64,000 bases of DNA from Actinomycetospora sp. TBRC 11914 (GTDB taxonomy: Bacteria > Actinomycetota > Actinomycetes > Mycobacteriales > Pseudonocardiaceae), in assembly GCF_012933465.1 (NCBI RefSeq), contig NZ_JABBND010000001.1:248001-312000 (forward strand). The letters are read 5' to 3'. The notes beneath the pieces were generated by a model. It ran no database searches. It was not told the DNA's origin and saw only the letters and a list, made by a program, of their open reading frames with translations. The position numbers were made by a program, and so were the translations under genes. Below are positions 21,968-35,963 of the stretch, one piece after another (the stretch's first letter is position 1; each line of letters starts with the position of its first letter).

Positions 21968-22110
21968 CGCGCCGACCGTCACCGCGCGACCGGGTCGCGG
22001 CGACCCGGTCGCGCCGGAGGTGACCGCCTCCCGCACCCGGCGTCCCGAATGACCAGACATTGCCGCCGGGCATATGTAGGGTCAATCGGGACCGACCGGG
22101 AGGAGCCGTC

Positions 22111-22908
22111 GTGGCGTCGAGGTCGCTGGAACGGGCGGGGGCCGCGCCGCTGTGGTCGCAGCTGCAGGACGACCTGCTCGGGCGCATCCACCGCGGCGAC
22201 TTCGCGGCGGCCTTCCCCGGTGAGCTCGCCCTGGTCGAGGAGTACGCGGTCAGCCGCAACACCGTGCGCCAGGCCCTCGCGCAGCTGCGCGCCGACGGGG
22301 TGGTCACCGCCGCGCGGGGCCGCGCGCCCCGGGTGGTCGACGGGCCGGCCCGCCCCGAGATCAGCCAGCCCGTGGGCACCGGATCGACGCTCTTCGACGT
22401 CGTCGAGAGAACCGGGCGCACCCAGACGAGCGTGGTCCGGGCCCTCGAGCGGACCACCGACGGCGTCGTCGCGACCCGCCTGGGGCTCGAGGAGTCCACC
22501 CCGCTGCTGCACCTCGAGCGGCTCCGGCATGCCGACGACGAGCCCCTGGCCTGGGACCGCGTCTGGCTCCCCTTCGCGGCCGCCGCGCCGCTGCTGGGCG
22601 TCGACCTGACCCACACCGCCCTGCACCGCGCGCTCGTGCGCCACACCGGGCTGCGCGTGGACGGCGGCCGGGAACGCATCCACGCCGAGCTCGCCGACCC
22701 GGTCCGCGCCCGCCTGCTCGGCATCGCCCCCGGCGACGCCGTCCTCGCCATGGAGCGCACCGGGTACCAGCGCGGCCTGCCCGTCGAGTGGCGCCGGACC
22801 GTCGTCCGCGGCGACCGGTTCAGCCTCACCGCCGTGTTCGGTCCCGAGCAGGGCCGCGAGCTCGCCCCCGCGACCGACCGCACCGACCGCACCCCCGTCC
22901 CGGCGTGA
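22111..22908 (+). CDS. GntR/HutC family regulator with UTRA domain
   Basis: A 265-residue regulator. Residues about 8-75 form the GntR winged helix (PLWSQLQDDLLGRIHRGDF, then YAVSRNTVRQALAQLRADGVV). Residues about 95-245 form a UTRA ligand-binding domain (LEESTPLLHLERLRHADDEPLAWDRVWLP). GTG at 22111 has a GGGAGGAG site; the frame stays open upstream without a site. It lies 16 bp upstream of the NodA-like gene in the same direction, so it probably controls it. The ligand is unknown; UTRA domains often bind sugar or amino-sugar phosphates or histidine-type ligands. Confidence 0.92.
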   Translation: MASRSLERAGAAPLWSQLQDDLLGRIHRGDFAAAFPGELALVEEYAVSRNTVRQALAQLRADGVVTAARGRAPRVVDGPARPEISQPVGTGSTLFDVVERTGRTQTSVVRALERTTDGVVATRLGLEESTPLLHLERLRHADDEPLAWDRVWLPFAAAAPLLGVDLTHTALHRALVRHTGLRVDGGRERIHAELADPVRARLLGIAPGDAVLAMERTGYQRGLPVEWRRTVVRGDRFSLTAVFGPEQGRELAPATDRTDRTPVPA

Positions 22909-22924: not shown

Positions 22925-23527
22925 ATGACCACGACGACCGAGTTCTCCGGTACCGCCCGCGCCACCGACGGCGAGCCGCCGGTCCGATGGACGACCCGGT
23001 GGGAGACCTCCCTCGAACCCCGCGAGCACGACGACATCGCGGCCCTGCTCGCCCGCAGCTACGCCTCCACCACCACCGTGTTCACCCACGGGCACAGCTG
23101 GGCCGGTGCCCGTCCGGAGCTGCGGATCCTCGGCCACCACCGCGGCGAGGTCGTCGCCCACGCGGCGGTGATCCGCCGCTTCCTGCGCGCCCCCGACCAC
23201 GACACCTCGGTCCTCGTCGGCGACGTCGGCCTCGTCGCGGTCGACCCCGACCGCCAGGGTCTGGGTCTCGGCGGCGCGCTGATGGACACGGTCGCCGCGA
23301 CCCTGCGCCGCCTCGGGCTCCCCTACGGCTTCCTCACCTGCGGACGCGAGGTCCGGGGGTTCTACCGACGGTGTGGGTGGACACCGCTCTCCGACCACGC
23401 CCTCCGGTCGATCAGCATCGACCTCGCCCTCGAGGATCACCGGCACAACGGCATGCTGCTGCCCGTCCACCGCTCCGCGGACGAGTGGCCCTCCGGGCCG
23501 ATCGAGCGCAACGGCCAGGAGATCTGA
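22925..23527 (+). CDS. NodA-like N-acyltransferase
   Basis: A 200-residue protein that matches the rhizobial NodA family from end to end by eye. SWAGARPELR (58-67) is the NodA hallmark, followed by VVAHAAVIRRFLR, DVGLVAVDPDRQGLGLG (acyl/CoA-type loop), LGLPYGF, and the C-terminal EWPSG (187-191) with ERNGQE. Length equals NodA (about 196). NodA transfers a fatty acyl chain to the free amino group of a de-acetylated chitooligosaccharide. No nodB or nodC lies nearby, so the acceptor here may be another amino sugar or amine. It sits 16 bp after the GntR regulator, with an AAGG-type ribosome site. A generic GNAT acetyltransferase is the alternative. Confidence 0.8.
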   Translation: MTTTTEFSGTARATDGEPPVRWTTRWETSLEPREHDDIAALLARSYASTTTVFTHGHSWAGARPELRILGHHRGEVVAHAAVIRRFLRAPDHDTSVLVGDVGLVAVDPDRQGLGLGGALMDTVAATLRRLGLPYGFLTCGREVRGFYRRCGWTPLSDHALRSISIDLALEDHRHNGMLLPVHRSADEWPSGPIERNGQEI

Positions 23528-23878: not shown

Positions 23879-24310
23879 TCAGCCCTTCCCGTTCCCCTTG
23901 CCCTTGCCGTTGCCCTTCCCGTTCCCGTTGCCCTTCCCCTTGCCCGGGCCGCCGTCGTCGTCGCCCTTCGCGTCCCCACCCCGGCCGGCCTTGGCGGCGT
24001 GCGAGGCCGGCGGCGGGTCGGCGCGATCCCGGGTGTCGACGACGGCCCGCTGCGTCACCGCGGGCACGTCGGGCTCGGACCCGGCACGGGCGGCCACCGC
24101 CTGCGGCGCCGGCGCGGTGGACGGCGCCGCAGCCGGCGGTGCCGGCTCGGCCCGGGGCACGATCGCGACCCCGGCGACCGGGGGCTCCAGGACATCGGCG
24201 GTCGGCGACGACGCCCCTCCCTGCGCCGAGAGCAGGACGACGGCCGTCGTCGCGACGAGCGCGAACACCGCCAGCGCACTGCCGGCGAGGCGCGGCCACG
24301 TCCAGGTCAT
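23879..24310 (-). CDS. Single-pass membrane/secreted protein with Gly-Lys-Asn-rich tail
   Basis: A 143-residue protein. One hydrophobic segment (LAGSALAVFALVATTAVVLL, about residues 8-27) is followed by an Ala/Pro-rich, probably unstructured region. The C-terminal tail consists of about 25 residues of Gly, Lys and Asn in GKGNG-type repeats and is strongly basic. The ATG at 24310 has a good GGAGG site. No domain is recognised. A basic exposed tail could bind nucleic acid, teichoic or anionic polymers; that is speculative. It lies downstream of the LuxR-fusion gene in the same direction? No: both are on the minus strand, and this one is 5' of nothing, so it is the last gene of that direction. 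Confidence 0.6.
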   Translation of the reverse strand: MTWTWPRLAGSALAVFALVATTAVVLLSAQGGASSPTADVLEPPVAGVAIVPRAEPAPPAAAPSTAPAPQAVAARAGSEPDVPAVTQRAVVDTRDRADPPPASHAAKAGRGGDAKGDDDGGPGKGKGNGNGKGNGKGKGNGKG

Positions 24311-24406: not shown

Positions 24407-26125
24407 TCAGCCCGCCCAGGGCGGCAGGACGAAGTCGCCGTCGGCGTAGGTCGCGGGGCTCACCACCCGCTGGCGGCCGTCCTGGATCTGGTGCACGAGG
24501 TGGGCCTGCGCGAGGGACGGGTCGCCGGTCCCCTCACCCGTCCACGTCTGTGCCGTCTGGCCGGGGCCGTCGAACGCGTAGGCGCCGTTGACGCCCCGGT
24601 GCACCGAGCGGCGCAGGTGGTCGGCGACCGCGGTGAAGTCACGGAAGTCCGCCACCGCCCACGCCCCCGCGACGAGGTGCACGCGGTCGTAGGCGATCCC
24701 GGCGTGCGAGCGTCCCGGCACGGCGCCGAACCGGCGGGCGTAGCGCGCCGCGAAGGCGCGCCCGAGGCGGTCGGGGTAGGTGCCGGTCGTCGTGGCCCAG
24801 AGGACGCCGTCGGCGAGCGGGCCGAGCCGGGCCCGCAGCTCGGGCACCGACGGGGCGTAGATGCCGTAGAGCAGCCCCGAGCCCCGGCTCGCCCGGAACC
24901 CCTCGACGAAGGCCACGTGGTCGTCGACGAGGTAGCTGCCCACCATGACCGCCGCGGGCTCGCCGGCCGCCGCCCGCGCTCCCGCCCCCGACCACCCGTC
25001 CGCCGCCGGGGTCGCGACGACGAGCTCCCACCCGCGCCGGTCGGCCTGCTCGGCGGCCTTCTCGAGCCCCAGGTCGACGAGCTCCCAGGTCGGCCGCACT
25101 GCCAGCAGCCGGCGGGAGCCCGGACGCCAGGCGCCGCGGTCGCGCAGGTCGGACACGTAGTCCACGAAGTGCGGCCCGTAGTGGACGTCGCTCGGACAGA
25201 CCTGGAAGACGCGGGCGAACCGGCCCGGCTCCCCGGCCGCGAGCCGTTCCATGAGTCCCGACGTGGCGGCGTGCAGGTAGGGCACGCCCGCCTCGGCCGC
25301 CAGGTGGTGGGCGAGGTCCTGCGGGGCCAGGTAGCCGGAGGTCAGGACGTCCACGTCGGCGGCGAGCAGGCCGGCGAACCCCGCCCGGACGGTGGCGGCG
25401 TCCTGCGGGTCGACGTCGGCGATGCGGAGCTCCAGGAGGCGTCCGGCGACCCCGCCGGCGGCGTTGAGCTCCTCGATCGCCAGGCGCGCCCCCTGCTCCA
25501 TCTCCCGGGCGTCGGCGGTCGCGGCCCCGGTGTGCGGGAGGAGGGCACCCACGCGCAGCGGGCGCCGGCGCAGGAGCCGGGGCGACGGGACCCGCCGGGC
25601 CGGGGCCTCGTCGGCGGCGGCCAGCGCCTTGCCGAGGCGCATCTGCTCGAAGCCGGCCGCGCCACCGGGCGGCGGCACGACGACGAGGCCCTCGTCGAGC
25701 GCGCGGGCGGCCGCCGCCCCGCGGGAGGCGACGTCGAGCTTGGCGAGCACCCGGTCCACGTGGGTGCCGACGGTGCGCGCGCCGATCTCGAGCCGCGCCG
25801 CGATCCCCGCGTTGGTCAGCCCGGCCACCAGCAGCGTCAGCACCTCGAGCTCGCGGCGGCTGAGGCCGTGCGGGAGCGCCTCGAGCGGGTCGACCGACAC
25901 CAGCGCCGTCGTCTCCTCGGCCCGCACCAGCGCGGCGACGGGCGCGCCATCGAGGTGGACCGCGCGGAGCTCGCCGACGGCGGCGCGCAGCGCCCCGGCC
26001 GCGAGCCGGCGCAGCTCGGCGGGCACGTCGTCGGCGGTGCCGTGCTCGACCACGCGCACGTCCCCGGACGCGTCGACCCGCAGGGCGGCGGGGCTGGGTG
26101 CCCGTCGCGGGCTGGTCAGGTCCAT
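24407..26125 (-). CDS. LuxR-type HTH fused to a type 1 periplasmic-binding-protein (amide/branched-chain amino acid) sensor
   Basis: A 572-residue fusion regulator. Residues 1-85 are uncharacterised; residues 88-135 are a LuxR/GerE helix-turn-helix (LSRRELEVLTLLVAGLTNAG, then ARTVGTHVDRVLAKLDVASR). From about 189 to the end lies a full type 1 substrate-binding domain of the LivJ/AmiC class (PLRVGALLPHTG, GARLAIEELNAAGGVAGR, VMVGSYLVDDHVAFVEGF, GIAYDRVHLVAGAWAVADF). There is no signal peptide, so it should sense a cytoplasmic ligand directly. AmiC-like domains bind amides or amino acids, which suits the divergent amidase/monooxygenase operon. An N-terminal HTH with a C-terminal binding domain of this class is uncommon. 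The start at 26125 is the first ATG. Confidence 0.88.
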   Translation of the reverse strand: MDLTSPRRAPSPAALRVDASGDVRVVEHGTADDVPAELRRLAAGALRAAVGELRAVHLDGAPVAALVRAEETTALVSVDPLEALPHGLSRRELEVLTLLVAGLTNAGIAARLEIGARTVGTHVDRVLAKLDVASRGAAAARALDEGLVVVPPPGGAAGFEQMRLGKALAAADEAPARRVPSPRLLRRRPLRVGALLPHTGAATADAREMEQGARLAIEELNAAGGVAGRLLELRIADVDPQDAATVRAGFAGLLAADVDVLTSGYLAPQDLAHHLAAEAGVPYLHAATSGLMERLAAGEPGRFARVFQVCPSDVHYGPHFVDYVSDLRDRGAWRPGSRRLLAVRPTWELVDLGLEKAAEQADRRGWELVVATPAADGWSGAGARAAAGEPAAVMVGSYLVDDHVAFVEGFRASRGSGLLYGIYAPSVPELRARLGPLADGVLWATTTGTYPDRLGRAFAARYARRFGAVPGRSHAGIAYDRVHLVAGAWAVADFRDFTAVADHLRRSVHRGVNGAYAFDGPGQTAQTWTGEGTGDPSLAQAHLVHQIQDGRQRVVSPATYADGDFVLPPWAG

Positions 26126-26260: not shown

Positions 26261-26322
26261 TTCGCCGCGGGCGCCGCGGACCTAGCGTCCTGCCACCGAT
26301 TCCCGACACCGTGGAGGCAGGC

Positions 26323-27375
26323 GTGCGCCTCGGAATCTTCGCCCCGACCCTGTCCGGCGGCTGGGTCATCTCGACCACGGCCCCGTGGTGGAAGCCCGAC
26401 TGGTTCCTCATGCAGGAGACCGCCCTCAAGGCCGAGAACTACGGCTTCGACTTCCTCCTCGCCCCCAACAAGTACAAGGGCATGGACGGCGAGATCCACT
26501 TCTGGAACTACGCCCTCGACTCCTTCACGACGATGGCCGCGCTCGCGGCCGTCACGCGCAAGGTCATGCTGATCCCGTCGATCTCGCTGCTCTCGGTGCC
26601 GCCGGTGTACGCCGCCAAGCAGTGCAAGACGATCGCCGACATCGCCGGGCCCGGCCGCTTCGGCGTCAACATCATCAGCGGCTGGGAGAAGCCGGAGTGG
26701 GAGTCGATGGGCCTGTGGCCCGGCGACGAGTACTTCGGCTACCGCTACGACTACGCCGCCGAGTACATGACGGTCATGCGGGAGCTCTGGGAGACCGGGC
26801 AGTCCGACTTCGACGGGCAGTTCTTCCACATGCGCGACGCCCGGCTCGAGCCGTGGTTCGACGACGGGAACATGCCCAAGGTCATCTGCGCCGGCCAGTC
26901 CGACCGCGGCATGCAGTTCACCGCCGAGCACGCCGACTACCAGTTCATGGGCGGCAAGCTCGACATCGACGAGCTGACCGGGCAGATGGGCCTGGTCCGG
27001 GCGGCGTCGGAGCAGGCGGGCCGTCCCATGGAGGCGTTCCCGCTCTACCAGTGCGTGGTGCGCGACAGCCTGGCCGAGTGCGACGACGTCATCGGCCGGT
27101 GGCGCGAGACCCAGGAGCTCGAGGTCGTCAAGACGATGACCGGGCACGCGTCGATGAACTCCGAGGCCGACGAGAACTCACTGCACGCGACGCTGCTCGG
27201 CAACGACAACTTCATGCTCTGGGAGATCATCAAGGGCGACCCGAAGAGCGTCGCCGAGCAGCTGCGGGCGATCTCCGAGGTGGACGGCGTGAGCGGCGTG
27301 ATGTTCACCTTCCAGGACTACCTCACCGACATCGACCGGTTCGGCACGCAGGTCATGCCGCTGCTGGCCGACTGA
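26323..27375 (+). CDS. RutA-like LLM-class flavin monooxygenase
   Basis: A 350-residue luciferase-like FMN monooxygenase closest by eye to RutA (pyrimidine amide monooxygenase): LGIFAPTLSGGWVIST at the N-terminus, GRFGVNIISGWEKPEWESMG, WPGDEYFGYRYDYAAEYM, PKVICAGQSDRGMQFTAEHADY and the final MFTFQDYLTDIDRFGTQVMPLL. RutA-type enzymes use a flavin peroxide to cleave amide or C-S/C-Cl bonds. GTG at 26323 was chosen because GGAGG sits 5 bp before it; an earlier in-frame GTG at 26311 overlaps that site. It starts an operon with the acylase. No rutB-F neighbours are present, so uracil is an unlikely substrate. Confidence 0.88.
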   Translation: MRLGIFAPTLSGGWVISTTAPWWKPDWFLMQETALKAENYGFDFLLAPNKYKGMDGEIHFWNYALDSFTTMAALAAVTRKVMLIPSISLLSVPPVYAAKQCKTIADIAGPGRFGVNIISGWEKPEWESMGLWPGDEYFGYRYDYAAEYMTVMRELWETGQSDFDGQFFHMRDARLEPWFDDGNMPKVICAGQSDRGMQFTAEHADYQFMGGKLDIDELTGQMGLVRAASEQAGRPMEAFPLYQCVVRDSLAECDDVIGRWRETQELEVVKTMTGHASMNSEADENSLHATLLGNDNFMLWEIIKGDPKSVAEQLRAISEVDGVSGVMFTFQDYLTDIDRFGTQVMPLLAD

Positions 27376-27390
27376 CCAGGAGGCCCGCCG

Positions 27391-29679
27391 ATGGCCGCGC
27401 TCCCCAGCAGCGAGCTCCCGGTCGCCGGGCTGCGCGGCGAGGTCGAGGTCCTCGTCGACCGGTGGGGGATCCCGCACGTCTACGCCGGATCGGCCCACGA
27501 CGCCTACGTCGCGCAGGGCTTCCAGGCGGCCCGCGACCGGCTCTTCCAGATCGACCTGTGGCGGCGCCGGGGCCTGGGCCGGCTCGCCGAGGTGTTCGGT
27601 CCCCGTCACCTCGACGGGGACCGGGCGCGGCGGCTGTTCCTCTACCGGGGCGGGATGGACGCCGAGTGGGCGTCCTACGCCGAGGGCACCCGCGAGATCG
27701 TCGAGGCGTTCGTCGCCGGGGTGAACGCCGGCGTCGACTGGGCGCTCGCGGCCCCCGAGGAGCGGCTGCCGCCGGAGTTCGCGGCGCTCGGCCACCTCCC
27801 GGCCCGCTGGTCGCCCGACGACGTGGTGCGCATCCGCACCCACGGGCTGCTCTACAACGCCGAGCAGGAGCTCGCCCGGGCCCTGACGGTGCGCGACCTC
27901 GGGCCGGCGGCCGAGGAGCTGCGGGCGATCCGGGAACCGGGCGGCCCGCTCACCGTCCCGGACGCCGGGATCCTGGACGCCCTGCGCGACGAGGTCCTCG
28001 ACGTCTACCGGCTGGCGTTCGCGCCGGCCGAGCTCGCGCCGGAGCCCGCCGTCGCCACCGCACCCTCCGGGAGCAACAACTGGGTGGTGTCCGCGGCGCG
28101 GTCGGGCACCGGGCGGCCGCTGCTGGCGAACGACCCGCACCGCGCGGTCACCGTGCCCTCGCTGCGCTACCTCGCCCACCTCGAGGCACCGGGCCTGTCG
28201 GTGATCGGGGCCGGGGAACCGAACCTGCCCGGGATCTCCCTCGGGCACAACGACCGCGTCGCCTTCGGCCTGACGATCTGGCCGATCGACCACGAGGACC
28301 TCTACGTCTACGACCTCCACCCCACCGACGACGACCGCTACGCCCACGACGGCGGGTGGGAGGCGTTCGACGTCGTCGCGGAGCGGACGCCGGTGGCCGG
28401 CGGGGAGGACGCCGCGCTGCGGCTCGCGTTCACCCGCCACGGACCCGTCGTGCACGTCGACCCCGAGGCCCGCGTCGCCGTCGCCGTGCGTGCCGCCTGG
28501 CTGCAGCCGGGCATGGCGCCCTACCTGGCGAGCCTGGGCTACCAGGACGCGGCCGACACCCGGGAGTTCCGCGACGCGCTGGCCCGGTGGGGCGCGCCCG
28601 GCGTCAAGCAGGTCTTCGCGTCCGTCGACGGGCGGATCGGCGTGCAGGCCTGCGGGCGGGTGCCCCGCCGGACCGGCTGGGACGGCGCCCTGCCGGTGCC
28701 CGGGGACGGGCGCTTCGAGTGGGACGGCGCGGTCGACGCCGGGGACCTCCCCGGGGAGGTGGACCCGGCGTCGGGCTGGGCCACGACGTCCAACCAGGCC
28801 GACGGGCCGGGCGAGGTCGTCGCGACGACCGACTGGTACTCGAGCGCCCGCCACGAGCGGTTGAGCGCGTGGCTCGGCAGCGGCGCACGCGTCGACGTCG
28901 GGTCCAGCCTGGCGATGCAGACGGACGCGACGAACGTCCACGCGCGGCGGCTGCTGGACCGGCTCGCCGCCGTCGGGGTACCCGACGATCTCCGGGAATG
29001 CTGGGCCGAGCTGCAGGCCTGGGACGGCGTGGAGGGGACCGACTCGCGCCCGGCCCTCGTCGTGCAGCTCTGGCTGCGGCGGCACTGGCGGCCGTGGCTG
29101 GCCGACCGGTGCCTCGCCCGTCTCGGGGTGGCGGCCGACCCGGCCGCCCGCGCCCGCCTGGTCCGCGAGGACACGCTGTTCTCCGACCTGCGCCCCGACC
29201 TGCGGATGCTCACCGTGGTCGACCCCGACCGCGACGACGACCGCGCGCTGCTGGCCGAGGGCCTCGGTGCCACGCTGCGCGCGGCCCTCGCCGAGATCGA
29301 GGCCCGGCTGGGGCCGGACCGCTCCGGGTGGACCTGGGGCGCCCTGCACCGCACCGAGCTCCGGCACCCCGTCCTGGGGCCGGCCGGGTCCCTGCCCCCG
29401 CAGCCCCGGGCCGGCAGCGGCGACACCGTCGGTCTCTCCGGGCACGACGCCGACTTCAACGCCGTGATGGGCTCGAGCTTCCGCATGGTCCTCGACGTCG
29501 GCGACTGGGACGCGAGCCGTGTCGTGACCGCGCCCGGTCAGTCCGGCGACCCCCGCTCCGAGCACTACGCCGACCTCCTCGGGCTCTGGGCGCAGGGCGG
29601 CTCCTTCCCGCTGGCCTACAGCCGGGCGGCCGTCGAGGCGGTGGCGACGGCGCGGCTGGTCCTCACGCCGCTCGCCTGA
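27391..29679 (+). CDS. Penicillin acylase family protein, cytoplasmic
   Basis: A 762-residue Ntn-hydrolase. The N-terminal region (VLVDRWGIPHVYAGSAHDAYVAQGFQAARDRLFQIDLWRR blocks) corresponds to the alpha chain. The nucleophile of the beta chain is Ser228 in GSNNWVVS, followed by PLLANDPHR and the LPGISLGHNDRVAFGLT segment. Members are usually exported and cleaved; here no signal peptide is seen, so it should mature in the cytoplasm. It hydrolyses an amide bond in an N-acyl compound. It is 15 bp after the RutA-like gene with an AGGAGG site, and both probably attack the same amide substrate. Confidence 0.9.
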   Translation: MAALPSSELPVAGLRGEVEVLVDRWGIPHVYAGSAHDAYVAQGFQAARDRLFQIDLWRRRGLGRLAEVFGPRHLDGDRARRLFLYRGGMDAEWASYAEGTREIVEAFVAGVNAGVDWALAAPEERLPPEFAALGHLPARWSPDDVVRIRTHGLLYNAEQELARALTVRDLGPAAEELRAIREPGGPLTVPDAGILDALRDEVLDVYRLAFAPAELAPEPAVATAPSGSNNWVVSAARSGTGRPLLANDPHRAVTVPSLRYLAHLEAPGLSVIGAGEPNLPGISLGHNDRVAFGLTIWPIDHEDLYVYDLHPTDDDRYAHDGGWEAFDVVAERTPVAGGEDAALRLAFTRHGPVVHVDPEARVAVAVRAAWLQPGMAPYLASLGYQDAADTREFRDALARWGAPGVKQVFASVDGRIGVQACGRVPRRTGWDGALPVPGDGRFEWDGAVDAGDLPGEVDPASGWATTSNQADGPGEVVATTDWYSSARHERLSAWLGSGARVDVGSSLAMQTDATNVHARRLLDRLAAVGVPDDLRECWAELQAWDGVEGTDSRPALVVQLWLRRHWRPWLADRCLARLGVAADPAARARLVREDTLFSDLRPDLRMLTVVDPDRDDDRALLAEGLGATLRAALAEIEARLGPDRSGWTWGALHRTELRHPVLGPAGSLPPQPRAGSGDTVGLSGHDADFNAVMGSSFRMVLDVGDWDASRVVTAPGQSGDPRSEHYADLLGLWAQGGSFPLAYSRAAVEAVATARLVLTPLA

Positions 29680-29718
29680 TCACCAGCACGCCGGGCCGGC
29701 CCGCGTGCGCCGCCAGCC

Positions 29719-29738
29719 CTTCCGCATCTCCTCGGAAG
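29719..29738. promoter_or_regulatory. Inverted repeat upstream of the glutamine synthetase gene
   Basis: CTTCCG and CGGAAG separated by 8 bp, with a further TTTCC half-site at about 29747-29751, just before the glnT-like start. It could be the site of the cupin-XRE regulator encoded at the end of this operon; there is no second copy in the window to support that. Confidence 0.3.
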
Positions 29739-29775
29739 AGATTACGTTTCCTGCCAAGACCCGAAGGGAGCCACG

Positions 29776-31146
29776 ATGACGCTCGACGCCTCACCCGTCG
29801 TCCGGCCCGAGCCGAGCCGCACCGCCGCGGTCGGCGACGCCGCCGAGCCCTCGCTGGCCGAGCTCGCCCGCGCCGACGGCGTCCGGTTCCTGCTCGCGAT
29901 GTTCGTCGACCTCACCGGCAAGCCGTGCGCGAAGCTCGTGCCGGTCGAGTCCGCGGACGAGCTGCAGCACGAAGGTGTCGGGTTCGCCGGTTACGCAGTG
30001 GGGGCGATCGGCCAGCAGCCGAGCGACCCGGACCTCATCGTCCTGCCCGACCTGGCGAGCTACACGCCGCTGCCGTGGGTGCGCGAGGGTCTCGCGCTGG
30101 TGCACTGCGACCCGCACGTCGAGGGCCGGCCCTGGCACTTCGCGCCGCGGGTGATCCTCAAGAACGTCCTGGCACAGGCCGCGCAGCGAGGCCTCGATCT
30201 GTGCGCCGGCGCCGAGATCGAGTACTTCCTCGTCCGGCGCGACGCCGACGGCTCCCTCGCCCCGGCCGACGTCAAGGACACCGAGGCCCAGCCCTGCTAC
30301 GACGCCCGCGGCCTGACCCGGATGTACGACCACCTCACCGGCATCTCGACGGCGATGAACGCCCTCGGCTGGGGCAACTACGCCAACGACCACGAGGACG
30401 CCAACGGGCAGTTCGAGCAGAACTTCGCCTACGCCGACGCGCTGACCACGGCCGACCGCGTCATCACCGCGCGCTACCTCATCTCGGTGCTCGCCGAGCA
30501 GCGCGGCATGACCGCGACCTTCATGCCCAAGCCCTTCGCCGACCGCACCGGGTCCGGGATGCACCTGCACCTGTCGCTGTGGGGCGACGGGGCCTCCCGC
30601 TTCCCCGACGACGCGGACGCCCGCGGCTTCGGGCTCTCCGAGCTCGCGTACCGCTTCCTCGGGGGGATCCTCGAGCACGCCTCGGGCCTGCAGGCCGTCC
30701 TGGCGCCGACCGTGAACTCCTACAAGCGCACCCGGGCGTCGGCGCCCCGGTCGGGCGCGACCTGGTCGCCGAACCGCCCGACCTACGGCGGCAACGACCG
30801 CACCCACTACGTGCGCATCCCCGACGGGAACCGCATCGAGCTGCGCGGCGGCGACGGCGCGGCCAACCCCTACCTCGCGCTCGCGGTGGCGCTCGGCGCC
30901 GGGCTCGACGGGATCGCCCGCGAGGTCGACCCCGGCTCCCCCGGGTCGGCCGAGCGTCCCGAGCTCCCCCCGACGCTGCTCCACGCCGTCGAGGCCCTCG
31001 GCGCCGACCCCGTGGTCACCGCCGCCCTCGACGCCGCCGGCCCCGGCGTCGCCGAGTACTTCGGGGCCGCGAAGCGCGAGGAGTTCTTCGAGTGGCACGC
31101 CACCGTCGGCTCCTGGGAGCACGACCGCTACCTGACCGCGTTCTAG
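29776..31146 (+). CDS. Type III glutamine synthetase family protein (GlnT / gamma-glutamylmethylamide synthetase-like)
   Basis: A 456-residue enzyme of the GlnT group: VRFLLAMFVDLTGKPCAKLVP, GAEIEYFLV (metal-binding Glu pair), NDHEDANGQFEQNF, RTGSGMHLHLSLW, APTVNSYKRTRASAPRSGATW and IPDGNRIELRGGDGAANPYL (ATP and glutamate sites). This group includes gamma-glutamylmethylamide synthetase, which ligates methylamine to glutamate. The N-methylglutamate-synthase-like genes that follow favour that reading over ordinary ammonia assimilation. The ATG at 29776 has an AAGGGAG site. It is separated from the next gene by 82 bp holding a strong hairpin. Confidence 0.88.
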   Translation: MTLDASPVVRPEPSRTAAVGDAAEPSLAELARADGVRFLLAMFVDLTGKPCAKLVPVESADELQHEGVGFAGYAVGAIGQQPSDPDLIVLPDLASYTPLPWVREGLALVHCDPHVEGRPWHFAPRVILKNVLAQAAQRGLDLCAGAEIEYFLVRRDADGSLAPADVKDTEAQPCYDARGLTRMYDHLTGISTAMNALGWGNYANDHEDANGQFEQNFAYADALTTADRVITARYLISVLAEQRGMTATFMPKPFADRTGSGMHLHLSLWGDGASRFPDDADARGFGLSELAYRFLGGILEHASGLQAVLAPTVNSYKRTRASAPRSGATWSPNRPTYGGNDRTHYVRIPDGNRIELRGGDGAANPYLALAVALGAGLDGIAREVDPGSPGSAERPELPPTLLHAVEALGADPVVTAALDAAGPGVAEYFGAAKREEFFEWHATVGSWEHDRYLTAF

Positions 31147-31150
31147 GGCT

Positions 31151-31205
31151 GCGCCCATGTGAACGGATGTGGTCGTCCTGGCGACCACATCCGTGCACAT
31201 GGCGC
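31151..31205. repeat. Long palindromic hairpin between glutamine synthetase and amidotransferase genes
   Basis: A 13-bp perfect arm, ACGGATGTGGTCG (31163-31175), pairs with its complement at 31182-31194 across a 6-nt loop TCCTGG. After one mismatch the stem continues for 7 bp (CCATGTG with CACATGG), and with one bulged base a further 5 bp GCGCC/GGCGC. There is no T-tract. It might be an intergenic repeat element, an attenuator that lowers expression of the distal genes, or an operator. Confidence 0.75.
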
Positions 31206-31228
31206 CGACGAAGGAGGGCCTCTCCCCG

Positions 31229-32098
31229 ATGTGCGGAATCGTCGGACTCCACCTGCGCGACCCGGGGCTGTACCCGCAGCTCGGGCGGCTGATGGTCTCG
31301 ATGCTGGACGGCGTCGCGGAGCGTGGCCCGGACTCGGCCGGGGTCGCCGTCTACGGCGACACCCGCCGGGTGCCCGAAGGACACGCCGCCGTGTCGGTGC
31401 TCCTGCCGCCGGACGCCGACACCGGCGGGCTGGACGCGGTGGTCACGCGGGCCGGTGACACCACGGTCGTCGCGGCCCCGACCGGCCTCGACGAGCTGGT
31501 GGCACGGGTGACGACGGCGTTCCCGACGGCGCTGGTGGTCGGCACCGGGCACGACCTCGCGGTCTACAAGGGGACCGGGCACCCCGGCGCCCTCGCCGCA
31601 ACCTACGACCTCGCGGGGGCGTCCGGGTGGCAGGCCCTCGCCCACACCCGCATGGCGACCGAGTCCGCGGTGACGCCGGAGGGCTGCCACCCGTTCTCCG
31701 TCGGCCCCGACCAGTGCCTGGTGCACAACGGCTCCTTCTCCAACCACGCCACGATCCGTCGCGAGCTCGAGCACGCCGGCGTGCGCTTCGACTCGGAGAA
31801 CGACTCCGAGGTCGGCGCCCGGTACGTCGCCTCCCGGCTGGCCCAGGGCGAGGACCTGGAGAAGGCCCTGCTGGCGCTCCGCGAGGTCTTCGACGGCTTC
31901 TACACGCTGCTCGTCACCAGCGCGGAGGGCTTCGCCGTCGTCCGCGACCCGATCGCCTGCAAGCCCGCGATCGTCGCCGAGACCGACGCGTGGGTCGCGA
32001 TGGCCTCGGAGTTCCGCGGTCTCACCGGCCTGCCGGGGATCGAGTCCGCCCGTCTCTACGAGCCCGAGCCCGGGAGGGTCTACGCATGGCAGCGCTAG
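31229..32098 (+). CDS. Class II glutamine amidotransferase, MgsA/GlxB-like
   Basis: A 289-residue Ntn glutaminase domain. The start is fixed by the catalytic cysteine: ATG TGC at 31229 gives MCGIVGLH, with Cys as residue 2 after Met removal, and AAGGAGGG lies 10 bp upstream. Further family signs are RGPDSAGVAVYG, HTRMATESAVTPEGCHPFS and HNGSFSNHATIRRELE. In N-methylglutamate synthase (MgsABC) and the related GlxBCD set this unit matches the amidotransferase part of glutamate synthase. Its stop lies 13 bp inside the next gene, so the subunits are coupled. Confidence 0.9.
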   Translation: MCGIVGLHLRDPGLYPQLGRLMVSMLDGVAERGPDSAGVAVYGDTRRVPEGHAAVSVLLPPDADTGGLDAVVTRAGDTTVVAAPTGLDELVARVTTAFPTALVVGTGHDLAVYKGTGHPGALAATYDLAGASGWQALAHTRMATESAVTPEGCHPFSVGPDQCLVHNGSFSNHATIRRELEHAGVRFDSENDSEVGARYVASRLAQGEDLEKALLALREVFDGFYTLLVTSAEGFAVVRDPIACKPAIVAETDAWVAMASEFRGLTGLPGIESARLYEPEPGRVYAWQR

Positions 32099-32778
32099 GC
32101 ACGGAGACGATCACCGTCGACCTCGCCTCGGGGTCGGTGCGGGCGCTCAACGCCGAGCTGCACGATCCGTCGGCGAAGCTCTACGAGGTGCGCAACCCGG
32201 CCGGCGCGCACGCCGTCGCCGCCGGGATCGACCGCGGGATCACCGTGGACGTCCGCGGCCACGTCGGCTACTACGCGGCCGGCATGAACGACGGCGGCAT
32301 CGTGACGATCCACGGCAACGCGGGCACCGGGGTCGCCGAGAACATGATGTCCGGGACGGTCCGGGTCACCGGCGACGTCTCGCAGTCGGCCGGGGCGACC
32401 GCGCACGGCGGGCTGCTCGTGATCGGCGGCAGCGCCTCGATGCGGTGCGGCATCTCGATGAAGGGCGTGGACATCGTCGTCGGCGGCTCCGTCGGCCCGA
32501 TGAGCGCGTTCATGGCGCAGGCCGGCCGCATGGTCGTCTGCGGCGACGCCGGCGACGGGCTCGGCGACTCGATCTACGAGGCCCGCCTCTACGTCCGCGG
32601 CACCGTCGGGGCCCTCGGCGCGGACTGCGTCGAGAAGGAGGTGCGCGACGAGCACCGCTCCGAGCTCGCCGAGCTCCTCGCGGCGGCCGGCCTGGAGCAC
32701 GACGTGGCGCAGTTCCGCCGGTACGGCTCGGCGCGCCGGCTCTACCACTTCCACTCCGAGCAGGCAGGGGCGTACTGA
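32086..32778 (+). CDS. GXGXG-domain glutamate synthase subunit, MgsB/GlxC-like
   Basis: A 230-residue beta-helix protein equivalent to the C-terminal domain of the glutamate synthase large subunit: GHVGYYAAGMNDGGIVTIHGNAG, then VTGDVSQSAGATAHGG, then VVCGDAGDGLGDSIYEA show the repeated G-x-G spacing. As a separate polypeptide it is typical of the three-subunit N-methylglutamate synthase/Glx assemblies. The ATG at 32086 overlaps the amidotransferase end by 13 bp, and its stop overlaps the next start (ATGA). Confidence 0.9.
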   Translation: MAALGTETITVDLASGSVRALNAELHDPSAKLYEVRNPAGAHAVAAGIDRGITVDVRGHVGYYAAGMNDGGIVTIHGNAGTGVAENMMSGTVRVTGDVSQSAGATAHGGLLVIGGSASMRCGISMKGVDIVVGGSVGPMSAFMAQAGRMVVCGDAGDGLGDSIYEARLYVRGTVGALGADCVEKEVRDEHRSELAELLAAAGLEHDVAQFRRYGSARRLYHFHSEQAGAY

Positions 32779-34145
32779 TGGCGCTGGAACATTCCCCGTC
32801 GCTGCGAGAATCAGCGACCTTCGACCGCGGGGTCATCGCCGAGATCCAGCGCGCCGCCGAGACCGGCGTCTACGACATCCGCGGCTGGGGCGCCAAGCGC
32901 GCCGTCCCCCACTTCGACGACCTGCTCTTCCTCGGCGCCTCCATGTCGCGCTACCCGCTCGAGGGCTACCGCGAGCGCTGCGACACCGACGTCGTCCTCG
33001 GGACCCGCAACGCCCGCTACCCCCTGCACCTGCAGACCCCGGTGACGATCGCCGGGATGAGCTTCGGCGCCCTCTCCGGCCAGGCGAAGGAGGCCCTCGG
33101 GCGGGGCGCCTCCGAGGTCGGCACCAGTACGACGACGGGTGACGGCGGCATGACGCCCGAGGAACGCGGCCAGTCGAAGACGCTCGTCTACCAGTACCTG
33201 CCCAGCCGCTACGGCATGAACCCGACCGACCTGCGCAAGGCCGACGCCATCGAGGTCGTCCTCGGGCAGGGCGCGAAGCCCGGCGGTGGCGGGATGCTGC
33301 TCGGCCAGAAGATCTCCGACCGGGTCGCCGGCATGCGCACCCTGCCCGCGGGCATCGACCAGCGCAGCGCCTGCCGCCACCCCGACTGGACCGGCCCCGA
33401 CGACCTCGCCATCAAGATCCTCGAACTGCGCGAGATCACCGACTGGGAGAAGCCGGTCTACGTCAAGGTCGGCGCCACCCGCACCTACTACGACGTCAAG
33501 CTCGCGGTCGCGGCCGGCGCGGACGTCGTCGTCGTCGACGGCATGCAGGGCGGCACCGCCGCCACCCAGGACGTGTTCATCGAGCACGTCGGCATCCCGA
33601 CCCTCGCCGCGATCCCGCAGGCCACGGCGGCCCTGCAGGAGCTCGGCCTGCACCGCCACGGCGTCCAGCTCATCGTCTCCGGCGGCATCCGCAGCGGCGC
33701 CGACGTCGCCAAGGCCATGGCCCTGGGGGCCGACGCGGTGGCGATCGGGACCGCGGCGCTGATCGCGCTGGGCGACAACTCCCCGGAGTACGCGGCGGAG
33801 TACGAGGCCCTCGGGACCGCGGCCGGCTGCTACGACGACTTCCAGGACGGCCGCGACCCGGCCGGGATCACCACCCAGGACCCGGAGCTCGCGTCCCGGC
33901 TCGACCCGATCCGCGCGGGGAAGCAGCTCGCGAACTACCTGCGGGTGCTGACGATGGAGGCGCAGACGATCGCGCGGGCCTGTGGCAAGTCGCACGTGCG
34001 GCACCTGGAGCCCGAGGACCTCGTCGCGCTCACGGTCGAGGCCGCCGCGATGGCCCGCGTACCGCTCGCGGGTACCGACTGGATCCCGGGAGCCGGACAC
34101 GGAGCGGAGCGGAGCTGGACCCAGGGAAGGGGCCACCATGCCTGA
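32778..34145 (+). CDS. FMN-binding glutamate synthase-type subunit, MgsC/GlxD-like
   Basis: A 455-residue alpha/beta barrel equal to the central FMN domain of glutamate synthase: TPVTIAGMSFGALSGQAKEAL, STTTGDGGMTPEERGQSK, QGAKPGGGGMLLGQK, VVVVDGMQGGTAATQDVF, and IVSGGIRSGADVAKAMALGADAVAIGTAAL (phosphate site). It would use glutamine-derived ammonia, or an amine, with 2-oxoglutarate to form (N-methyl)glutamate. Iron-sulphur cysteines are few but some are present (CRHP, GCYDD, ACGKSH). Starts at the ATGA overlap; ends 8 bp inside the next gene. Confidence 0.92.
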   Translation: MALEHSPSLRESATFDRGVIAEIQRAAETGVYDIRGWGAKRAVPHFDDLLFLGASMSRYPLEGYRERCDTDVVLGTRNARYPLHLQTPVTIAGMSFGALSGQAKEALGRGASEVGTSTTTGDGGMTPEERGQSKTLVYQYLPSRYGMNPTDLRKADAIEVVLGQGAKPGGGGMLLGQKISDRVAGMRTLPAGIDQRSACRHPDWTGPDDLAIKILELREITDWEKPVYVKVGATRTYYDVKLAVAAGADVVVVDGMQGGTAATQDVFIEHVGIPTLAAIPQATAALQELGLHRHGVQLIVSGGIRSGADVAKAMALGADAVAIGTAALIALGDNSPEYAAEYEALGTAAGCYDDFQDGRDPAGITTQDPELASRLDPIRAGKQLANYLRVLTMEAQTIARACGKSHVRHLEPEDLVALTVEAAAMARVPLAGTDWIPGAGHGAERSWTQGRGHHA

Positions 34146-35316
34146 GGTCGTCATCGTCGGGGGCGGCCTCGAGGGCTGTGCCACCGCGTGGGCGCTGGCG
34201 CAGCGCGGCGTGACCGACGTCGTGATCGTCGAGCGCGCCACCGTGGGCGCCGGCGGCACCGGGAAGTCGTCGGGCGTCGTCCGCTGCCACTACGGCGTCT
34301 CCTCGCTGGCCGCCATGGCCGACCGCGCGCTCGACGTGCTCGAGAACGCCGAGGAGGTCCTCGGCACCGACGTCGGCTTCCACCAGACCGGCTACGTCGT
34401 GGGCGTCGGGCCGCAGAACGTCGACGCCCTGCAGGCCTCGCTGGCCGACCAGCGCGCCGTCGGGGTCCGCACCGAGGACATCGACCGCGACGAGGTGGCG
34501 CGGCTGTGGCCGGTCGCCGACCTCGAGCCCTTCGCGGCGTTCGCGTACGAGCCCCGGGGCGGGTACGGCGACGCCTACCGGACCGCCCAGGCGTTCGCCG
34601 CCGCCGCCCGCGGTCAGGGTGTCCGGCTGCGGCAGGGCGCGACGGTGGCCGAGATCCTCGTGACCGGGGGCCGCGCCCGCGGCGTCCGGCTCGCCGACGG
34701 CGAGGAGATCCCCGCCGGCCACGTCGTCGTCACCGCCGGGCCGTGGTCGGTGCCGCTGCTCGCCGCCCACGGGATCGACCTCCCGATCACGGTGCACCGC
34801 GAGCAGATCGTGCTCATCGACCCCGGCCAGGACCTCGGCCCCGTGCCGGTGTTCTCCGACCTGGTGTCGCTGCAGTACGTCCGCCCGGAGAGTGGCGGGG
34901 AGATCCTCTTCGGCAACTCCGACCTCTCGAGGCTCGAGCCCGCCGACCCCGACCGGTACTCCAACCAGGCCGACGAGCACGCCCTCGACGTGGCGGTGGA
35001 GAAGGTCGGGACCCGGTTCCCCGGCCTCGTGGACGCCGCGATCAGCTCCAGCTACGCCGGCTGCTACGACGTCACCCCGGACTTCAACCCGGCGATCTCC
35101 GAGACCCCGGTCGAGGCACTCGTCGTCGCCGCGGGGTTCTCCGGGCACGGATTCAAGATCTCGCCGTCGGTGGGGCGCCTGGTCGCCGATCTCGTCGTCG
35201 ACGGCAAGAGCAGCGACCCGGACGTCCCCGAGTCGGACTTCCGCCTGTCCCGCTTCGCCGAGGGGAACCTGCTGACGAGCCCCCACCCCTACGTCGGGGC
35301 GGGACAGATGCGATGA
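34138..35316 (+). CDS. FAD-dependent amine oxidase/dehydrogenase (sarcosine oxidase beta-like, DAO family)
   Basis: A 392-residue DAO-fold flavoprotein. The N-terminal FAD motif is VVIVGGGLEGCATAWALAQRG; SGVVRCHYGVSSL follows the usual SSG(G)xxR flavin-adjacent block, and FSGHGFKISPSVGRL near the C-terminus is the typical closing motif. It resembles sarcosine oxidase/dehydrogenase beta subunits and could oxidise N-methylglutamate or a similar secondary amino acid. The four-subunit N-methylglutamate dehydrogenase (MgdABCD) is absent, so this protein may act as a one-subunit substitute. Overlaps its neighbours at both ends. Confidence 0.9.
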   Translation: MPEVVIVGGGLEGCATAWALAQRGVTDVVIVERATVGAGGTGKSSGVVRCHYGVSSLAAMADRALDVLENAEEVLGTDVGFHQTGYVVGVGPQNVDALQASLADQRAVGVRTEDIDRDEVARLWPVADLEPFAAFAYEPRGGYGDAYRTAQAFAAAARGQGVRLRQGATVAEILVTGGRARGVRLADGEEIPAGHVVVTAGPWSVPLLAAHGIDLPITVHREQIVLIDPGQDLGPVPVFSDLVSLQYVRPESGGEILFGNSDLSRLEPADPDRYSNQADEHALDVAVEKVGTRFPGLVDAAISSSYAGCYDVTPDFNPAISETPVEALVVAAGFSGHGFKISPSVGRLVADLVVDGKSSDPDVPESDFRLSRFAEGNLLTSPHPYVGAGQMR

Positions 35317-35963
35317 CCGACGGACCGGACACCGGCCCGGCGACCCGGGAGGTCAGCGCGGCCCGGTCCCAGGAGGGGAAGCTCGAGCGGGCCATCGGCC
35401 ACCGGGTGCGCCGGCTCCGCCAGGAGTCCGGGGCCACGCTCGCCGAGATGGCGGTGCGGACCGGCATCTCCAAGCCGATGCTCTCGAAGATCGAGCACGC
35501 CCAGACCTCCTGCAGCCTCACCACCCTCGCCCGCCTCGCCGACGCCCTCGACGTGCCCGTCACCTCGTTCTTCCGCGGCGCCGACGGGGAACGGGAGGCG
35601 GTGTACACCCCGGCGGGCGCCGGGCCGCGCATCGTCGCCCGCGGCACCCGCGTGGGCCACGACTACACGCTGCTCGGCTCGCTGCGCGGACCGCACAAGC
35701 GCCAGGAGGCCCACCTGGTGACGCTGACCGAGCAGAGCGAGGTGTTCCCGCTCTTCCAGCACCCCGGCCACGAGCTGCTGTACATGCTCGAGGGCGTGAT
35801 GGTCTACGCCCACGGCGAGTCGAGCTACACGATGCGCCCGGGCGACGCGCTCCAGCTCGACGGCGAGGGTCTCCACGGTCCGCAGGAGCTGGTCGAGCTC
35901 CCGATCCGCTTCCTCTCCGTCCTCGCCCACGGCGACGACGGTGCCGATCCGTGCGACGAGTAG
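35313..35963 (+). CDS. XRE-family regulator with C-terminal cupin domain
   Basis: A 216-residue regulator. Residues about 22-80 form the XRE helix-turn-helix (IGHRVRRLRQESGATLAEMA, GISKPMLSKIEHAQTSCSLTTLARLADAL). Residues about 110-205 form a cupin (HELLYMLEGVMVYAHGESSYTMRPGDALQLDGEGLHGPQEL). This architecture is common in regulators of amine and polyamine use (PuuR-like). Its start overlaps the amine oxidase stop (ATGA), making it the last gene of the glutamine synthetase operon, and it probably autoregulates it. Confidence 0.93.
   Translation: MTDGPDTGPATREVSAARSQEGKLERAIGHRVRRLRQESGATLAEMAVRTGISKPMLSKIEHAQTSCSLTTLARLADALDVPVTSFFRGADGEREAVYTPAGAGPRIVARGTRVGHDYTLLGSLRGPHKRQEAHLVTLTEQSEVFPLFQHPGHELLYMLEGVMVYAHGESSYTMRPGDALQLDGEGLHGPQELVELPIRFLSVLAHGDDGADPCDE

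Follow-up and report, generated by a model that had tools for sequence, protein, structure and literature searches.

A NodA-family protein with a coenzyme A loop and an AAC(2')-type tyrosine, encoded beside a GntR/UTRA regulator gene in Actinomycetospora

NodA carries out the step that turns a chitin fragment into a symbiosis signal, and the origin of this step is an open question. According to the available text of PMC5080398, NodA acylates a terminal sugar that was previously de-acetylated by NodB, and its donor is acyl-ACP. In six of seven rhizobial reference records nodA is followed by nodB, mostly together with nodC, and in the Paraburkholderia sabiae record nodS and nodU follow in their place. 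NodA-like genes across the actinobacterial phylum were reported in 2015, as stated in the available part of that paper (Persson et al., PMC4447401). The second described system of relevance is AAC(2'), which, in the portions of the literature consulted, acetylates the 2' amino groups of aminoglycosides. In the accessible text on AAC(2')-Id (PMC7725843), the alpha1-alpha2 loop is described as the substrate gate, the C-terminal Trp210 of the 210-residue chain binds the drug via its carbonyl, and the Tyr150Ala variant is active on sisomicin only, at a level ∼100-fold lower (∼1%).

The window (the whole stretch of DNA analysed here, 64,000 nucleotides of Actinomycetospora sp. TBRC 11914, contig NZ_JABBND010000001.1, positions 248,001 to 312,000) contains a gene that the original prediction described as encoding a NodA-like N-acyltransferase, with no nodB or nodC nearby. 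The gene and the parts of its product that are compared with NodA and AAC(2') below are, in window coordinates:

22925..23527, + strand: NodA-like GNAT, 200 aa (PF02474 148.7 bits; TIGR04245 112 bits; AF2 mean pLDDT 90)
23096..23125, + strand: SWAGARPELR loop, residues 58-67, common to true NodA and putatively at the place of the AAC(2')-Id alpha1-alpha2 substrate gate
23255..23272, + strand: QGLGLG, residues 111-116, CoA pyrophosphate loop of GNAT type, counted at positions 111 and 116
23363..23365, + strand: Tyr147 of FYRRCGW, aligned with Tyr150 of AAC(2')-Id
23486..23524, + strand: WPSGPIERNGQEI, residues 188-200, C-terminal motif common to NodA, from the alignment and column counts

Family scores, distribution and phylogeny

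The 22925-23527 product covers positions 4-195 of the 195 in the PF02474 profile (148.7 bits, E 2e-43), in keeping with the predicted likeness to NodA along its length, and the motifs on which that prediction was built (SWAGARPELR, VAH..IRRF, the QGLGLG loop and the EWPSG..ERNGQE C-terminus) are all present in the 200-aa open reading frame. As the curated 22-bit cut-off of PF02474 is lax (65 of the 67 Streptomyces genomes with a match reach at most 41.4 bits, over part of the profile only), the margin over other models weighs more than the passing of the cut-off. The runner-up Pfam model, Acetyltransf_9, scores 44 bits, and the best AAC(2') NCBIfam model, AAC(2')-Ib, 41.6 bits. The original prediction was to be given up if the profile scored no better than generic GNAT families, or if a phylogeny placed the protein outside NodA-like proteins; on the first count, PF02474 stands far above such families. 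To the NodA model TIGR04245 the protein scores 112.4 bits against a curated subfamily cut-off of 175 bits, and to the curated AAC(2')-I models at best 41.6 bits against cut-offs of 375-400. Since the lax Pfam model is the only named family model tried that holds the protein, we set it apart as a variant within a wider group that is already known.

A tblastn search of plasmids with the window protein returned 234 records, nearly all from rhizobial genera and with 37.1% identity across 94% of the protein in the top row; among the matches listed that cover at least 90%, identity to NodA is ∼30-38%. Simple NG86 estimates of dN/dS are 0.22 against the closest orthologue (G010) and 0.45 against the G008 orthologue, with 0.50 for gntR, and by these estimates the nodA-like gene is evolving under purifying selection. 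A spurious reading frame or chance resemblance is ruled out by the PF02474 match, the tblastn rows and dN/dS, and the window protein is a real gene product of the NodA family, yet it does not qualify as a NodA in the tests applied. A defence role was dropped, as PADLOC matched neither the NodA-like protein nor the GntR regulator, and one scan with a single-sequence query confirmed no viral relatives.

PF02474 is matched in 14 of 18 genomes of Actinomycetospora, and two of the four without a match are only 83-84% complete. By alignment, nine of the 14 carry a gene of the window's kind (group A) and seven a second kind (group B), two of them having both; the labels A and B are our own. In G012, the group A gene is found in two pieces on two contigs (L014 and L017), broken at the contig ends, which reflects either an assembly break or a disruption. 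The nearest relative by identity among the best 80 of 187 stretches belongs to an Actinomycetospora MAG (86%). In a survey of the family, a match is present in 33 of 297 genomes, and those beyond the genus comprise 15 above 100 bits and four weak ones. A class-wide draw gave a match in 11 of 394 genomes, with only two Frankia-type proteins (304-310 bits) and one from Cryobacterium (134 bits) above 100 bits besides that of the window, and in Streptomyces 67 of 392 genomes match, only two of them above 100 bits. Such NodA-like proteins occur scattered among actinobacteria, which agrees with the available text of the 2015 report (PMC4447401). The highest score to NodA met outside NodA proper is 230.7 bits, for a protein of G827 (L173, 9091-9645) that keeps FYxxxGW and whose neighbours are, by eye, of thiamine type.

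In the tree, for which seven outside GNAT rows served as outgroup and three duplicate rows were left out of alignment and tree alike, the 15 rhizobial and two Frankia NodAs are united in a single clade (100/99) that sits at the end of a long branch (0.97) and excludes the window protein. The latter lies within Actinomycetospora group A (94/84), and A joins group B (92/88). With two AAC(2')-like rows included, the 55 NodA-like and NodA rows come together at 91/89, which is not firm. As to the second count of the original prediction, the protein is thus placed inside the wider NodA-like group and outside NodA proper. The basal order of the actinobacterial lines is unsettled, and the base of the tree is not trustworthy because the long branch G791 meets the NodA clade (program warning). 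An attempt to place NodA beside one particular actinobacterial lineage failed, since topology tests rejected neither a single clade of the actinobacterial rows (p 0.48) nor a grouping of NodA with Actinomycetospora (p 0.16). An actinobacterial origin of NodA, on which the gene had been proposed to bear and for which it proves relevant, would fit this tree and is unproved by it.

The genome search for nodB- and nodC-like genes that had been suggested as a check gave, in a genome that is 97% complete, no match to the NodC model above its cut-off (best 90.9 bits vs 550) and 13 matches to the polysaccharide deacetylase family PF01522, none of which falls within the window. A nodABC-like cluster in the window was dismissed on these grounds; the gene does not stand with nodB and nodC partners, and the predicted setting, a NodA-like protein in an actinobacterium free of an adjoining nodB/nodC cluster, is confirmed. 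At two places in G000 (C63:158063-159565 and C1:672517-674001), a polysaccharide deacetylase match lies close to a NodC-like glycosyltransferase match; as the two matches of a pair share one open-frame length (983 aa in one pair, 1317 aa in the other), these pairs are probably fused proteins.

Acceptor loop, donor side and predicted fold

Conserved residues were counted in two samples. The first is a survey of the best 80 of 187 confirmed stretches, all 80 of which were scored (30 actinobacterial, 50 NodA); these are loci and not species (Rhizobium altiplani is counted four times). Because W[ATV]GARPE[LR]R and [SDE][VQL]LVG[DH]VGLV served as the patterns for retrieving them, the invariance of residues 63-67 among these loci is partly selected. 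The NodA of S. bottropensis, where nodABC is reported according to the available text of PMC4447401, lies outside the sampled NodA loci. The second sample is a 62-row alignment of 38 actinobacterial proteins, 15 rhizobial and two Frankia NodAs and seven outgroup GNATs, in which the 55 NodA-like and NodA rows include rows found by the Pfam profile.

In this alignment E27, W59, R63, P64, E65, R67 and R84 are present in all 55 NodA-like and NodA rows. In the outgroup, E27, W59, R63, P64, R67 and R84 each occur in 3-5 of the seven rows (W59, R63, P64 and R67 in 3-4), and E65 in none. The SWAGARPE.R loop, the RR of the VAH..RR strand and the WP.G...RNG C-terminus are held in common with NodA. As the GARPE loop falls at the place of the AAC(2')-Id substrate gate, it would sit on the acceptor side.

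The donor side sets NodA apart from its actinobacterial kin. The QGLGLG sequence conforms to Q/RxxGxG, which we take to be the CoA pyrophosphate-loop motif of GNATs. At position 111, 38/38 actinobacterial rows have Q, H or R and 2/2 Frankia NodAs have Q, whereas 15/15 rhizobial NodAs have E; Gly116 is present in 38/38, 2/2 and 4/15 of these, respectively. Among the best 80 of 187 stretches, position 111 is Q or H at 30/30 actinobacterial loci and E at 48/48 proteobacterial NodA loci. Tyr147 is found in all 38 actinobacterial rows as well as in the seven outgroup GNATs, and in none of the 17 NodA rows. Among the best 80 of 187 it is present at 29/30 actinobacterial and 0/50 NodA loci, the sole actinobacterial exception (L081) ending at a contig end before that residue. 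The two Frankia NodAs among these 80 have Q at the loop and lack the tyrosine (2/2). In 15-residue blocks, identity between the actinobacterial proteins and NodA is highest at 50-64 and 95-109 (0.50-0.53) and lowest at 110-124 and 140-184 (0.14-0.20).

The structure comparison that had been proposed was carried out on predicted models. For the AF2 model of the window protein (mean pLDDT 90), AAC(2')-I fills the first 29 Foldseek rows against the PDB, at E 7e-14 to 2e-11 and a TM of 0.64-0.72 normalised to the query, with 7crm, 1m44 and 5us1 as the closest solved fold over 183-207 columns, and the first other row is the GNAT YhbS (E 1e-8). A model of Mesorhizobium NodA, at a lower confidence (mean pLDDT 78), likewise retrieves AAC(2')-I as rows 1-29, with E from 1e-9 to 1e-6 and the following row at 3e-5. 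Both proteins are, by prediction, AAC(2')-fold proteins. The window protein further resembles AAC(2')-I in its CoA loop and in the alpha4-helix tyrosine (Tyr150 in AAC(2')-Id, with which Tyr147 is aligned). In contrast, identity in the structural alignments is 13-23%, and AAC(2')-I has no GARPE loop and ends in Trp, whereas the window protein terminates in NGQEI. It is related to NodA, and its mode of action most likely resembles that of AAC(2'), but by the tests above it belongs to neither family. The NodA chemistry implied by the original prediction is thus not supported, given the CoA loop and tyrosine that are absent from the 50 scored NodA loci, the TIGR04245 score, the position outside the NodA clade and the nearest solved fold.

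That NodA-like genes exist in actinobacteria is already known from the available text of PMC4447401, and the window gene is of the same kind. The words Actinomycetospora, GntR, tyrosine, coenzyme A and acetyltransferase do not occur in the main text of that paper, so that the paper describes no GntR operon and does not put the donor-site difference in such terms. We found no statement of a donor-site difference between NodA and its actinobacterial kin in the available text of the open-access literature searched, including PMC4447401, PMC4619719, PMC5080398 and PMC6804068, and, judged by title, no open-access paper on nodA of Actinomycetospora. Within that literature, the split between a loop held in common and a donor side that has changed appears to be new.

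The gntR gene and its presumed promoter

Two further features lie directly upstream of the nodA-like gene:

22047..22087, + strand: presumed promoter/operator, a GAATGACC-N25-GGTCAATC inverted repeat, 7 of 8 matching
22111..22908, + strand: GntR/HutC-type regulator with a UTRA effector domain (UTRA 110.6 bits, GntR 40.2 bits, both from the longer ORF starting at 22060)

The regulator carries the GntR HTH and the UTRA domain that define GntR/HutC regulators, and its nearest solved chains are PhnF-like 3f8m, DasR and YvoA/NagR. Its gene is separated from the nodA-like gene downstream by 16 bp, as originally noted, and is presumed to be the first gene of a two-gene operon. A homologous GntR gene lies directly upstream in five of the nine group A genomes (the window, G010, G008, G013 and G005), which upholds the view that the two genes belong together. 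In A. chiangmaiensis it is one gene away, and in A. soli, A. succinea and the G012 contig none was found beside the nodA-like gene. With assumed start codons, the intergenic gaps in four group A genomes are 16, 16, 10 and 10 bp; the G010 MAG gives no value because its gntR frame has no stop ahead of the next gene. The five pairs are found in at least three different surroundings.

A -10-like TAGGGT (22077-22082, read by eye) lies inside the inverted repeat. Upstream of the gntR genes, ATGTAGGGTCAATC is conserved in five of six cases and GAATGACC or AAATGACC in four of six. With one mismatch allowed, ATGTAGGGTCAATC occurs a single time in the 6.5 Mb genome, and the inverted repeat occurs once in the window vs 0 in 100 shuffles. 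This uniqueness of the motif in the genome and of the repeat in the window suggests a local self-repressor with one target. A scan for sigma-70 promoters and terminators found nothing.

In NagR, Arg133 and Arg135 clamp the sugar phosphate, and this arginine pair is kept as LERLR in 6/6 of the regulators. The window regulator thus shares with NagR (YvoA), DasR and PhnF the GntR and UTRA domains together with the arginines of the NagR phosphate clamp, but differs in other pocket residues (by eye, at NagR Glu145, Ser165, Tyr167 and Tyr228) and in having its presumed site only at its own gene. With those other residues changed, a sugar phosphate is not required as the ligand; the kept clamp makes a ligand plausible that is anionic and perhaps phosphorylated. 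Through the ligand of its regulator, the conserved gntR pair opens a route to the substrate.

Candidate function, gene surroundings and the origin of NodA

The results above establish the family, the predicted fold, the pattern of conserved residues, the pairing of the two genes and the motif at the promoter; on the donor, the acceptor, the action of the repressor, its ligand and the direction of evolution we infer the following. The reading that we prefer, with a probability of roughly 0.5, is that of a CoA-dependent N-acetyltransferase of a 2-amino sugar, encoded in a two-gene operon under a ligand-released GntR/UTRA repressor. The repressor (22111-22908) would occupy its own promoter (22047-22087) until released by a small anionic ligand. 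The AAC(2')-fold GNAT would then N-acylate the 2-amino group of a glucosamine-type sugar with acetyl-CoA or another short acyl-CoA as donor, the QGLGLG loop and Tyr147 holding CoA and the sugar resting against the SWAGARPE.R loop. The acceptor would most likely be a foreign or waste amino sugar or an aminoglycoside-like compound. The amino-sugar acceptor is our best guess, which a lipid donor is not, although an enzyme that uses CoA could instead accept a long-chain acyl-CoA. In favour of this reading are the split at Tyr147 and position 111, the AAC(2') fold, the shared acceptor loop, the pairing with gntR, the unique motif and the NagR arginine pair. Against it stand the 13-23% identity to AAC(2'), a score of 41.6 of 400 bits and the missing C-terminal Trp, as well as the occurrence of acceptor-loop residues W59, R63, P64 and R67 in 3-4 of seven outgroup rows, the changed NagR pocket residues, and the position of the GntR gene, which is one gene away in A. 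chiangmaiensis and was not found next to the nodA-like gene in A. soli, A. succinea or G012.

The surroundings of the gene also bear on its function; gene calls were made by our own script, in which the nodA-like gene itself went uncalled at 10 of 40 loci. Genes for EutB and for a permease of amino-acid type, likely for ethanolamine use, lie 1-6 kb upstream in G013, G005 and A. soli (loci L034, L035 and L031; Pfam on G013), and sarcosine-oxidase-like genes follow the nodA-like gene in G010. In the window, an amine-type cluster begins ∼6 kb downstream and contributes glutamine-synthetase-like, glutamate-synthase-like and FAD-oxidase genes at a distance of 6-12 kb; one glutamine-synthetase-like gene is common to the window and G010. 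Amine-breakdown genes are thus found within 9 kb at five of eight group A loci, which fits an amine substrate equally well and favours an alternative in which the GNAT acts on a non-sugar amine (an amino alcohol, methylated amine, amino acid or peptide) in connection with amine breakdown, its likeness to NodA reflecting shared ancestry only. GNATs also switch substrates readily. However, the first 29 Foldseek rows are AAC(2') only, the acceptor-side loop is invariant over the 55 rows, NodA included, and the amine genes lie outside the operon of the pair and vary in kind by locus. We consider this alternative unlikely.

Transfer of a fatty acyl group, with acyl-ACP or acyl-CoA as donor and a de-acetylated piece of chitin or another amino sugar as acceptor, yielding a lipo-sugar signal as a NodA-type enzyme would, is distinctly improbable. 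PF02474 is matched along its full length, and the loop and C-terminus are common to NodA. In Streptomyces sp. CBMA291 (L084, 4854-11639), the nodA-like gene lies amid genes of lipid type, namely those for an acyl-AMP ligase, a protein that matches NodS weakly (28.7 bits) and a family 2 glycosyltransferase, as well as a gene for a WD40 protein, and G013 and G005 have a convergent gene for an 872-879 aa protein that in G013 contains an AMP-binding and a borderline acyltransferase domain. Yet the window protein keeps the CoA loop and tyrosine that the 50 NodA loci among the best 80 of 187 lack, misses the TIGR04245 cut-off and falls outside the NodA clade (100/99); its genome has no NodC match above cut-off, and no acyl-carrier gene is present among the scanned window neighbours. 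The amino-sugar acceptor of the original prediction therefore survives as the best guess, but fatty acyl transfer to a chitin-derived signal does not.

A housekeeping N-acetylation of peptidoglycan glucosamine or of GlcN-inositol, as a cell-wall or mycothiol precursor, would suit group B, whose genes lie between an oligopeptide-type ABC operon and a gene for a PIG-L/MshB-like de-N-acetylase, 26-66 bp from the latter, at four of seven loci (those with gene calls; Pfam on one locus), and a cell-wall link of actinobacterial nodA genes is suggested in the available text of Persson et al. (PMC4447401), but this is very doubtful for the window copy, which belongs to group A and has no de-N-acetylase neighbour, and the 4/18 genomes without a match (two of them 83-84% complete) would be odd for such a step, while a dedicated regulator favours an inducible role.

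Returning to the amino-sugar acetyltransferase, true NodA would represent a sister or daughter line in which the sugar side was retained and the tyrosine lost, and rhizobial NodA would additionally have lost the CoA loop upon adopting acyl-ACP. We regard it as possible, if tentative, that NodA descends from an actinobacterial AAC(2')-type amino-sugar acetyltransferase in this way, the tyrosine going first and the loop later, with Frankia NodA halfway. Under such a descent, the kin of the window protein would retain the older state, a NodA sugar site joined to the CoA site of an antibiotic acetyltransferase, and Frankia NodA (Q at the loop, no tyrosine; 2/2) would be an intermediate form. A relative that unites the NodA loop motif with an aminoglycoside-acetyltransferase CoA site is a concrete candidate for the ancestral state, and in a soil actinobacterium, with the parts of an antibiotic-type acetyltransferase intact and a switch gene of its own, it hints at what the ancestors of NodA did before root nodules. 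The split between loop and donor side makes the origin of NodA testable, and donor specificity and the role of one tyrosine are simple tests that the window protein offers.

Several minor observations concern neighbouring genes. In Cryobacterium, one of four nodA-like copies lies 39 bp after an APH-family kinase gene and another 57 bp after a LysR-like gene (by eye). In the nearest relative (L030), a regulator similar to the XRE-cupin regulator of the window directly follows the nodA-like gene. In the window itself, the region 26311-35963 encodes a luciferase-like monooxygenase, a penicillin-amidase-type protein, glutamine-synthetase-like and glutamate-synthase-like parts, an FAD oxidoreductase and the XRE-cupin regulator, and presumably resembles an amine pathway of the N-methylglutamate type. 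On the minus strand, a predicted 143-aa open reading frame (23879-24310) has repeat codons of a Gly-Lys/Gly-Asn-like kind near 23890-23980 (by eye), and a 572-aa protein (24407-26125) combines a LuxR-type HTH and a periplasmic-binding-protein domain in one chain, a pairing that appeared unusual.
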